Assembly (NCBI GenBank): GCA_015709315.1
Contig: JACCQI010000002.1
Span: 119,530-183,529 of the forward strand
Direction: 5' to 3'
Length of the DNA: 64,000 bases
DNA from: Desulfovibrionaceae bacterium
GTDB lineage: Bacteria > Desulfobacterota > Desulfovibrionia > Desulfovibrionales > Desulfovibrionaceae
In this document: positions 22,243-25,411 of the stretch, piece after piece
Numbering within the stretch: the stretch's first letter is position 1
How the letters are laid out: each line of letters starts with the position of its first letter
Notes under the pieces: model-generated
What the model was told of the DNA's origin: nothing
The model's input: only the letters and a program-made list of their open reading frames with translations
The model's database searches: none
Position numbers and translations under genes: made by a program

Positions 22243-22616
22243 CGATTGCTGCGTTAAGTGAATTGTGGGCGAGTCTTCGAGCCGTACAAAATCTTACGCC
22301 TCAGGTGTGCTGCGGAAAAGGCAGATCCTTGCGTATTGGAATGCGCGGCGGCCCTGTCTTTTCCTTGCGCCTTGCACTCAACCCCCTCCAGCGCCAAAAC
22401 CATCTCTCGTTCGAGGAACCGGGCGGGTAAACGAACAGCAAGGCGAATCATTGATGAGGAAAGGGCTTGCGCCGCAAGAGAACCGTTGAAATTCGCCAAT
22501 GCGCGATGGCCCGCAATCCGGCTTCGGGCCGTGAAAAGTCCGGGGAGGACGCTCGACTTTTGAGTTACTGTCGGATACATTTCTTTCTTTGCATCAATGA
22601 TTACTTTGAGGTCGCC
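22243..22616. other. Intergenic region before hisD
   Basis: About 370 bp without a credible gene. Short ORFs on both strands lack ribosome binding sites or family resemblance. It must contain the hisD promoter, but no clear -35/-10 pair or riboswitch was recognised. Confidence 0.6.
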
Positions 22617-23921
22617 ATGGACTGCAGACAATTGACATATGAGGCCCGGAAGGACTGGAACGAAATCGCCTCCTGGCTGGGCGCACGGAAGGACCCGGAC
22701 GCCAAGGTGGACGGCATCGTCCGCGATATCCTGAACAACGTGAGGGCACGCGGCGACGAGGCGCTGGCCGAATACACCCGCAAATTCGACTGCGACACCT
22801 TTGACGCCGCAACCCTGCGCGTGCCCGCAGACGGCATCCTGGCCGCCGTGGATGAAATCCCCGAAGAGGACGCGGCCATCCTGGCCGAGGCCATCGAGCG
22901 CATCCGCGCCTTCCACCTGAATCAAAAGGAAAAATCCTGGTGGACCACTGGTGAGGACGGCACGGTGCTCGGCCAGATGGTCCGGCCCGTGGACCGCGTG
23001 GGCCTGTACGTGCCCGGCGGCCAGGGCGGCGAGACCCCGCTCATTTCCAGCCTGATAATGAACGCCGTCCCGGCCCAGGTCGCCGGGGTGGAATCCATTG
23101 CCGTGACCTCGCCCCCGCGCAAGGACGGCACCCTGAACCCGTACATCCTGGCCACGGCCGGACTGCTCGGCCTGGACGAGATATACCTGGCCGGCTCCGC
23201 CTGGGCCATCGCCGCCCTGGCCTTCGGCACCCGGACCATCGCCCCGTGCGACGTGCTGGCCGGGCCGGGCAACATCTTCGTGGCCACGGCCAAGGCGCAG
23301 CTCATCGGGCAGGTGGGCATCGACATGGTGGCCGGTCCCTCGGAGATCGCCATCCTGGCCGACGAAAGCGCCAACCCTGCCTGGCTGGCCGCGGACATGC
23401 TTTCCCAGGCCGAACACGATCCCCTTGCCGCCGCCATCCTGGTCACCCCGGACGCCGGACTGGCCGCCAAGGTCCTTCAGGAACTCGACACCCGGTGCGC
23501 GGCCCTGCCCCGCTGCGAGATAGCGGCCAAGTCGCTCAAGGACTGGGGCGCGGTCATCACCGTGCCGGACATGAAAGCCGGAACCGAGTTGGTCAACCTG
23601 CTGGCCCCCGAACACCTGGAACTGGCCGTGGCCGACCCCTGGGGGTTGCTCGGCTCCATCCGCCACGCCGGGGCCATCTTCATGGGCCACAACTCGCCCG
23701 AACCCGTGGGCGACTACTTTGCCGGACCCAACCATGTGCTGCCCACCCTGCGCACGGTGCGCTTCTCCTCGGCCCTGTCGGTCCAGAATTTTTGCAAGAA
23801 ATCCAGCGTGATCGCAGCCAGCCCGAGCTACGTGGCCGAACACGGCGCAAAGATCGCGCGCCTGGCCCGCCTGGAAGGGCTGGAGGCCCACGCCCGCAGC
23901 GTGGAAACCCGATTCAAATAG
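22617..23921 (+). CDS. hisD: Histidinol dehydrogenase
   Basis: Zinc- and NAD-dependent oxidation of L-histidinol to histidine, the last two steps of histidine synthesis. Motifs include VDRVGLYVPGG, DVLAGPGNIFVATAK, DMVAGPSEIAILAD and LSQAEHDPLA (zinc ligands), and HLELAVADPW. The ORF track starts at 22467; the ATG at 22617 with GAGG upstream gives 434 residues, the usual length. It is upstream of purC with a 27-nt gap, so the two may be cotranscribed although the pathways differ. Confidence 0.97.
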   Translation: MDCRQLTYEARKDWNEIASWLGARKDPDAKVDGIVRDILNNVRARGDEALAEYTRKFDCDTFDAATLRVPADGILAAVDEIPEEDAAILAEAIERIRAFHLNQKEKSWWTTGEDGTVLGQMVRPVDRVGLYVPGGQGGETPLISSLIMNAVPAQVAGVESIAVTSPPRKDGTLNPYILATAGLLGLDEIYLAGSAWAIAALAFGTRTIAPCDVLAGPGNIFVATAKAQLIGQVGIDMVAGPSEIAILADESANPAWLAADMLSQAEHDPLAAAILVTPDAGLAAKVLQELDTRCAALPRCEIAAKSLKDWGAVITVPDMKAGTELVNLLAPEHLELAVADPWGLLGSIRHAGAIFMGHNSPEPVGDYFAGPNHVLPTLRTVRFSSALSVQNFCKKSSVIAASPSYVAEHGAKIARLARLEGLEAHARSVETRFK

Positions 23922-23948
23922 CATTACATTAATAGAGGGAGAAATTTC

Positions 23949-24842
23949 ATGGCCGTTTTCGAGACCGACATCACCGAATACCCGCTTGTTTCCCGGGGCA
24001 AGGTGCGCGATATCTACGACATCGACGAAAACACCCTGCTCCTGGTGACCACGGACCGCATCTCCGCGTTCGACGTGGTCATGCCCGACCCCATTGCGGA
24101 CAAGGGCAAGGTGCTCAACCAGATCACCCTGTTCTGGATGGACATGATGAAGGACCTGGTGCCCAACCACATCATCGCCACCGACGTGGACGACTACCCG
24201 GACCCCCTGCGCAAGTACAAGAACCAGCTCCAGGACCGCTCCGTTCTGGCCCGCAAGGCCAAGCCCCTGCCCATCGAGTGCATCGTGCGCGGCTTCATCA
24301 CCGGCTCGGGCTGGTCGGACTACCTCAAGACGGGCGAAGTCTGCGGCCACAAGCTGCCCGAGGGCCTGAAGGAATCGGAGATGCTCGAAAAGCCCCTGTT
24401 CACCCCGTCCACCAAGGCGGAGCTGGGGCTGCACGACGAAAACATCACCCTTTCCGCCGCCGCCGACCTCATCGGCGAGGAAATGATGCGCCGGGTGGAG
24501 GACCTGGCCCTTTCCATCTACACCCGCGCCCGCGACTACGCCAAGAAGCGCGGCATCCTCATTGCGGACACCAAATTCGAATTCGGCATCATCGACGACG
24601 AACTGATCTTCATCGACGAGGCGCTGACCCCGGACTCCTCCCGGTTCTGGCCCGAGGAAGGCTTTGAGCCGGGCAAGTCCCAGCCGAGCTTCGACAAGCA
24701 GTACTTCCGCGACTGGCTGATCGAGATCGGCTTCAACAAGCAGCCGCCCGCCCCGCACATCCCGGCGGACATCGCCGAACGGACACGGGCCAAGTACCTG
24801 GAGGCGTACAAGCTTCTGACCGGCGACGACCTCAAGGTCTAA
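23949..24842 (+). CDS. purC: Phosphoribosylaminoimidazole-succinocarboxamide synthase
   Basis: ATP-dependent joining of aspartate to CAIR in purine synthesis. Motifs include LVSRGKVRDIYDIDE (residues 11-25), TDRISAFDVVMPDPI, IVRGFITGSGWSDY and LIFIDEALTPDSSRFW. At 297 residues it belongs to the longer class. A ribosome binding site (GAGGGAGAAA) precedes the ATG. It is followed 9 nt later by the tiny membrane-protein gene, which has its own strong ribosome binding site. Confidence 0.97.
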   Translation: MAVFETDITEYPLVSRGKVRDIYDIDENTLLLVTTDRISAFDVVMPDPIADKGKVLNQITLFWMDMMKDLVPNHIIATDVDDYPDPLRKYKNQLQDRSVLARKAKPLPIECIVRGFITGSGWSDYLKTGEVCGHKLPEGLKESEMLEKPLFTPSTKAELGLHDENITLSAAADLIGEEMMRRVEDLALSIYTRARDYAKKRGILIADTKFEFGIIDDELIFIDEALTPDSSRFWPEEGFEPGKSQPSFDKQYFRDWLIEIGFNKQPPAPHIPADIAERTRAKYLEAYKLLTGDDLKV

Positions 24843-24851
24843 GGAGGATTC

Positions 24852-25001
24852 ATGCCCGAGTGGTTGCAACTTATCTGCCTGGTGATCCTGGGACTGGCCA
24901 TCGGCCGCGTGCTCAGGAACAAGCTCGGCGTCGGCGGTTGAGGCCCCCGCAAGGATTCGTGCGGCTGGAAGCCGCCGAAAAACGACGACGAAGACAAATA
25001 G
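24852..25001 (+). CDS. Candidate 49-aa membrane selenoprotein (UGA at codon 30); otherwise a 29-aa microprotein
   Basis: AAGGAGGA lies just upstream of an ATG that opens MPEWLQLICLVILGLAIGRV, one clear transmembrane helix, then LRNKLGVGG. The next codon is TGA (24939-24941). The same frame continues for 19 codons, GPRKDSCGWKPPKNDDEDK, with mostly G/C third positions, ending in TAG. The Gly-Gly-U-Gly context matches the C-termini of eukaryotic SelK and SelS, which are also single-span membrane proteins. A SECIS-like hairpin sits 14-38 nt after the TGA. If TGA is a plain stop, the product is a 29-residue membrane peptide. The gene is too short for the ORF track. It lies between purC and the rpsF promoter. 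Confidence 0.6.
24956..24979 (+). promoter_or_regulatory. SECIS-like hairpin downstream of an in-frame TGA
   Basis: TTCG-[T]-GCGGCT-GGA-AGCCGC-CGAA forms a 10-bp stem with a single bulged U at 24960, six pairs below a GGA apical loop. The loop begins 26 nt after the TGA. Bacterial SECIS elements have the same elements in the same place: a bulged U in the upper stem, a G-containing apical loop, and a loop about 16-37 nt after the UGA. The hairpin lies inside the extended reading frame. Confidence 0.55.
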
Positions 25002-25028
25002 CCGATGCACGGGAGGGGGCCGCCCGAC

Positions 25029-25057
25029 TTGACAGGTGCGGCAATTCCCAATATGTA
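25029..25057 (+). promoter_or_regulatory. Sigma-70 promoter of rpsF-rpsR-rplI-dnaB
   Basis: Perfect -35 TTGACA (25029-25034), 17-nt spacer, and -10 TATGTA (25052-25057), about 64 nt before rpsF. A hairpin CTCCCC-GTGGTT-GGGGAG (25075-25092) lies in the leader and could be the site of S6/S18 autoregulation, although the known binding motif was not verified. Confidence 0.75.
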
Positions 25058-25120
25058 ACCCCTCTTGCCTTGCTCTCCCCGTGGTTGGGGAGGGCCAATT
25101 GACCAAAAGGAGTTTTGAAA

Positions 25121-25411
25121 ATGGCAAACAATTACGAGACGCTCGTGCTTCTCTCTCCGGAGCTGGCCGAGGAAGACAGGAAGACCCTCCTGGCCACCCT
25201 CACCGGCATCGTTGAGCGCGAAGGCGGCAAGATGGTTGAGACCGACGACTGGGGCATGCGCCAACTGGCCTACCCCGTCGAGAAGCAGACCCGCGGTTAC
25301 TACGTCCGCCTGGTGTTCGAAGCCCCCGGCGCCCTGGTTGCTGAACTGGAACGCAACATCCGCATCACCGACGGCATCTTCAAGTTCATGACCGTCAAAC
25401 TGGCTGCCTAG
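25121..25411 (+). CDS. rpsF: 30S ribosomal protein S6
   Basis: Binds the 16S rRNA central domain together with S18. The 96-residue product starts [19 protein letters not shown] and has [30 protein letters not shown], typical of S6. The ATG at 25121 is chosen over the TTG at 25115 in the track because AAAGGAG is 8 nt upstream. It is first in the rpsF-rpsR-rplI-dnaB operon behind a strong promoter. Confidence 0.98.

Follow-up and report, generated by a model that had tools for sequence, protein, structure and literature searches.

A predicted family of very small single-pass membrane selenoproteins in Desulfovibrionaceae and other bacteria

The eukaryotic selenoproteins SelK and SelS have a single transmembrane helix, a presumed cytosolic C-terminus and a selenocysteine residue (Sec, U) in a Gly-rich flexible tail, with U placed next to the C-terminus. 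In bacteria, the FeoB-associated Cys-rich membrane proteins (PF12669) are small proteins in which one N-terminal helix is followed directly by a cluster of Cys residues. Prokaryotic selenoproteins have been inventoried as 119 families (PMC13188914, May 2026; Table 1). Here, we describe a gene at positions 24852-25001 (+ strand) of a stretch of 64,000 nucleotides from a Desulfovibrionaceae bacterium (contig JACCQI010000002.1; hereafter the window). Judged from sequence comparison, its product is almost certainly a genuine selenoprotein, and it belongs to a large unannotated family of predicted single-pass membrane proteins of 45-65 residues, present in hundreds of bacterial genomes.

The gene starts with ATG at 24852, between purC and rpsF on the + strand, which also carries all features described below unless stated otherwise. 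A strong Shine-Dalgarno site (AAGGAGGA, 24840-24847) overlaps the purC stop codon. The predicted product of 49 residues, MPEWLQLICLVILGLAIGRVLRNKLGVGG-U-GPRKDSCGWKPPKNDDEDK, has a single transmembrane helix (codons 24858-24923), which an AlphaFold2 model places at residues 3-24, with a mean pLDDT (predicted local distance difference test) score of 84-88 over residues 1-20 and a low-confidence flexible tail. After the helix come Gly-Gly, an in-frame TGA at 24939-24941, Gly, 18 further codons and a TAG stop at 24999-25001; the codons past the TGA have G or C as third base in 15 of 19 cases. The ribosome-binding site, the single helix, the residues and codons around the TGA and a hairpin 14 nt past it had been listed in a preliminary description of the locus, and all are present in the sequence. 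The codon counts in family members (TGA or TGC) and the association of Sec and Cys forms with SelB indicate that the TGA is read as selenocysteine (U30). Residue C37 (24960-24962) is its presumed redox partner, and a WxPP motif with a K/D-rich tail (24966-24998) is predicted from homologues and the model to be flexible.

The same segment can be read under the standard code as a 29-residue open reading frame with the same start and a good ribosome-binding site, in which case the TGA would be an ordinary stop and the likeness downstream of it would reflect chance or an overlapping function. Homologues speak strongly against this. When 149 genomes of this taxonomic family were searched with stop codons read through, homologues carrying a single TGA at the corresponding position turned up in eight further genomes of the genus and in numerous other genera, with the motif G-U-GPxxxC(G/S)WxPP followed by a K/D-rich tail; the sequence past the TGA is conserved without frameshifts, and other relatives carry Cys codons at this position, as the preliminary description had proposed should be looked for. 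In five close relatives without gaps, the ratio of non-synonymous to synonymous change (pN/pS) is 0.38 upstream of the TGA and 0.35 downstream of it, whereas the two alternative frames of the post-TGA DNA give 0.89 and 3.08. Purifying selection on the codons after the UGA is thus restricted to the Sec reading frame. One Desulfovibrionaceae homologue (L023) has TGC in place of TGA. Two further candidates from this search (L026, L028) were rejected as not being family members.

The codon at the Sec position was then compared over 142 non-redundant members collected by hidden Markov model, and is TGA in 140, TGC in two, and TAA or TAG in none. If the codon were an ordinary stop, TAA and TAG would be expected to turn up beside TGA through drift. 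The motif N(R/K)W(V/I)(L/F)P(K/R)(L/M)G, whose residues precede the TGA and hence do not presuppose it, was scanned for in 84,980 species genomes; of the 80 loci found, 79 have TGA and one has TGC. Both the TGA and the downstream residues, including the Cys and the tail, are conserved in dozens of genera, and Cys codons occur in relatives that lack SelB (see below). We therefore regard termination at the TGA as next to impossible.

Immediately past the TGA lies a hairpin resembling the bacterial selenocysteine insertion sequence (SECIS), TTCG(T)GCGGCT-GGA-AGCCGCCGAA, at 24956-24979. It starts 14 nt past the TGA and pairs as TTCG-(T)-GCGGCT-GGA-AGCCGC-CGAA, with a bulged T at 24960 and an apical loop, GGA (24967-24969), that begins with G. 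This geometry, already recognised in the preliminary description, agrees with the known bacterial SECIS pattern, and the structural signal across the family exceeds that of synonymous-codon shuffles. The post-TGA region is stabler than such shuffles (mean z -1.38, n = 139, vs -0.47 in an upstream control), and the best hairpin scores 16.0, compared with 10.6 in shuffles (p = 9e-42). The loop starts 20-27 nt past the TGA in 85% of members (42% of shuffles) and has a G within its first two bases in 93% (59% of shuffles). Within the genus of the window, the stem GCGGC/GCCGC is preserved even at synonymous sites, and in one homologue (L010) a compensating change, GAC/GTC for GGC/GCC, keeps the pairing despite the replacement of Gly by Asp (GGC to GAC) and of Pro by Ser (CCG to TCG). 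An Rfam search of the locus gave no match.

The host genome encodes the complete Sec machinery that the preliminary description had named as a check: selA (SelA match, 535 bits), selB (SelB match, 383.6 bits), selC (tRNA-Sec match, 80.7 bits) and selD, with SelD itself carrying an in-frame TGA. An in-frame TGA by itself would fit any recoding, and the UGA could in principle be subject to readthrough or be translated as Trp or Cys, with no selenium involved. The alternative codon across the family, however, is Cys, and it tracks SelB. In Planctomycetia, where the family occurs in 52 of 149 genomes, SelB was sought in those 52 and the codons were read. SelB is present in 35 of the 37 genomes with the TGA form (five of the 37 being classed from the search table alone, and not from extracted codons) and in none of the 14 with only TGC or TGT (Fisher p = 9.3e-11). 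In the phylum of the window, the family is found in 166 of 353 genomes with SelB and in 8 of 42 without (p = 5e-4). Both tests count related genomes as independent, which makes the p-values optimistic, yet the 0/14 is unambiguous. The Cys forms, mostly C-x4-C, thus occur mainly where Sec machinery is absent. The sole Trp codon at the Sec position is found in a genome without SelB (G574, L220), in a copy that also has a TGA within its helix and looks like a product of decay. Together with the SECIS-like hairpin, these observations make decoding without selenium very improbable, and the conserved TGA, the frame-specific selection, the sel genes and the exchange of Sec for Cys in step with SelB all bear out the original proposal of a selenoprotein. 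Two Planctomycetia genomes with SelB have a Sec paralogue as well as a Cys paralogue (G622, L201/L207; G649, L199/L206).

The family extends far beyond Desulfovibrionaceae. Profiles built from the Desulfovibrionaceae sequences (A1) and then more broadly (A2) were run on 395 genomes across the phylum and matched 174 of them (44%), in 114 of 246 genera; in a sample of Spirochaetota, 25 of 296 genomes carried matches. TGA was found in all of the matches listed, in the phylum and in Spirochaetota alike. Much of this genome sampling consists of metagenome-assembled genomes (MAGs). Hosts include Desulfacinum infernum, D. hydrothermale, Desulfuromusa kysingii, Desulforhabdus, Desulfuromonas, Geobacteraceae, Syntrophobacteraceae, Spirochaetota and Planctomycetota. 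The main branch reads helix-NRW(I/V)LP(K/R)(L/M)G(V/I)xT-U-(M/L)Sx(S)C followed by a charged tail. The purC-rpsF location and the GG-U-G motif, which the preliminary description had noted for the gene, hold for the Desulfovibrionaceae branch only, the family as a whole being much larger; the purC-rpsF location is shared by same-genus genomes and several others, and in other genera the gene lies elsewhere. A copy in an MAG labelled Chloroflexi (L130) hardly differs from copies in Desulfuromonadaceae (L132, L138), and probably reflects mis-binning. A scan of a plasmid collection found no family member, and two matches in IMG/VR, both antisense within a phage gene, were rejected as chance.

The most probable explanation overall, in our view, couples Sec decoding with a cytoplasm-facing single-pass U...C redox protein. 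SelB, tRNA-Sec and the hairpin about 14 nt downstream would let ribosomes read the UGA as selenocysteine, a step that has strong comparative support. Mean net charge rises from -0.8 ahead of the helix to +2.1 past it, so that by the positive-inside rule the short acidic N-terminus should lie outside and the basic, Sec-bearing C-terminal side should face the cytoplasm. The selenol would then sit about ten residues beyond the membrane, usually with a Cys 5-7 residues further (134 of 142 members; 5-12 residues in 138 of 142). We somewhat favour a mechanism in which a selenenylsulfide between U and C forms reversibly, cycling with the selenol/thiol state, such that a membrane-tethered protein could act at the cytoplasmic face on small oxidants or disulfides, reducing them and being re-reduced in turn by thioredoxin or a similar partner. 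The C-x4-C version may do the same job in lineages without Sec.

Several observations weigh against this interpretation. The U-C pair is not universal, since 4 of 142 members lack a Cys within 14 residues of U, and second paralogues with the sequences ILPKFGMRG-U-MPRPP... and LGLRG-U-AAPERR... have no Cys past U. The contexts found by clustering gene neighbourhoods were all lineage-specific (purC-rpsF, gltX, engB-like, a two-component pair, FmdB-like and rubrerythrin-like genes, all named from sequence), and some spurious clusters of antisense open reading frames also appeared; no conserved gene neighbour across lineages emerged from this clustering, and hence no partner is indicated. Finally, the UGA form occurs without full SelB in some MAGs (G535, G662; 8 of 42 in the phylum), where the missing SelB likely reflects incompleteness.

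With Sec taken as real, two other roles can be considered. The U/C pair could be a binding site for a metal or metalloid, or for sulfide or polysulfide, as in the FeoB-associated Cys-rich proteins, to which the family is similar in size and topology, with chalcogen residues right after one N-terminal helix; the Cys form L023 even has a weak Pfam match to PF12669 (E = 2.8). This match is, however, far under the cut-off (8.7 vs 27 bits), the other members tested gave none, the conserved chalcogen ligands number just two, a single U/C pair rather than a Cys cluster, and neither feoB nor a metal-transport gene is prominent among the clustered neighbours, with no feoB seen nearby. We consider such a site unlikely. 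Alternatively, the protein might belong to a larger membrane complex as a small subunit with a regulatory or assembly function, its selenol serving as a redox switch. Very small single-pass proteins are often subunits, and the conserved NRWxLPxxG just past the helix could be a docking site, but the patchy distribution over the phylum and the lack of a shared neighbour make this a doubtful proposition too. The tethered redox protein remains our preferred reading. 

The resemblance to SelK and SelS that had been suggested for the window gene holds for the architecture, whereas homology was not detectable, as neither SelK (PF10961) nor SelS (PF06936) gave a Pfam match to any member tested. The position of U differs as well: it does not fall within the last few residues, as in the GGUGx end of SelK and SelS, but is usually followed by 15-35 residues (19 in the window gene), and the main bacterial branch has xT-U-MSxSC, unlike GG-U-G. 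SelS presumably has a CSWxP segment beside its GG-U-G, and the Desulfovibrionaceae GG-U-GPxxxCSWxP has the reversed order; we regard this as a lead and not as a test.

With the catalogued prokaryotic families the present one shares a Sec-UGA followed by a hairpin, Cys forms in Sec-less relatives and a U...C pair. No entry in Table 1 of PMC13188914, though, corresponds to a single-span protein of this tiny size with U-x4-7-C or GG-U-G; the lone GUxG entry, hypothetical protein DG (NF049953, 172 positions), has only sub-threshold matches in the genome and none in the window's contig. Searches with NCBIfam models (selenoprotein families included), Pfam models and PDB profiles gave no match to the family members tested, in line with the earlier remark that no such named bacterial family was known. 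A search of openly licensed papers, without their supplements, found no description of the family, although an earlier mention is possible. The family thus appears to be previously undescribed, and standard annotation would truncate or miss the gene. Bacterial selenoprotein catalogues draw mostly on similarity to annotated Cys proteins, so that a protein this small escapes them. The homology filter of the deep-Sep approach may, according to its authors, drop selenoproteins without Cys homologues (PMC12013277), which could account for the gap.

Since the family occurs in 44% of the sampled genomes of the phylum, as well as in Planctomycetota and Spirochaetota, the selenoproteomes of these groups have been undercounted. 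We consider it quite possible, though somewhat less likely than not, that few selenoprotein families of sulfate- and metal-reducing bacteria and of Planctomycetia are as widespread as this one, that it escaped notice because of its size of about 65 residues or fewer, and that it is a bacterial counterpart of SelK and SelS by convergence or very old descent. In any case, a bacterial single-span membrane selenoprotein becomes available for comparison with the eukaryotic SelK and SelS, which remain poorly understood, and the natural series of Sec/Cys exchanges, with two genomes holding both forms, offers material for asking what selenium adds.

Some minor observations concern individual loci. A tandem second paralogue with its own TGA, of the kind without Cys described above, directly follows the purC-linked copy at L016 (the same place as L036) and L024, and at L025 the second copy has completely lost its U (GFGEEG). 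An FmdB-like zinc-ribbon or rubrerythrin-like gene, named from sequence, lies near L044, L048, L054, L079 and others, and is not family-wide. In the window itself, a 957-residue antisense open reading frame (22254-25127, - strand) spans hisD, purC and the selenoprotein gene, and looks like a spurious, GC-rich mirror reading frame.
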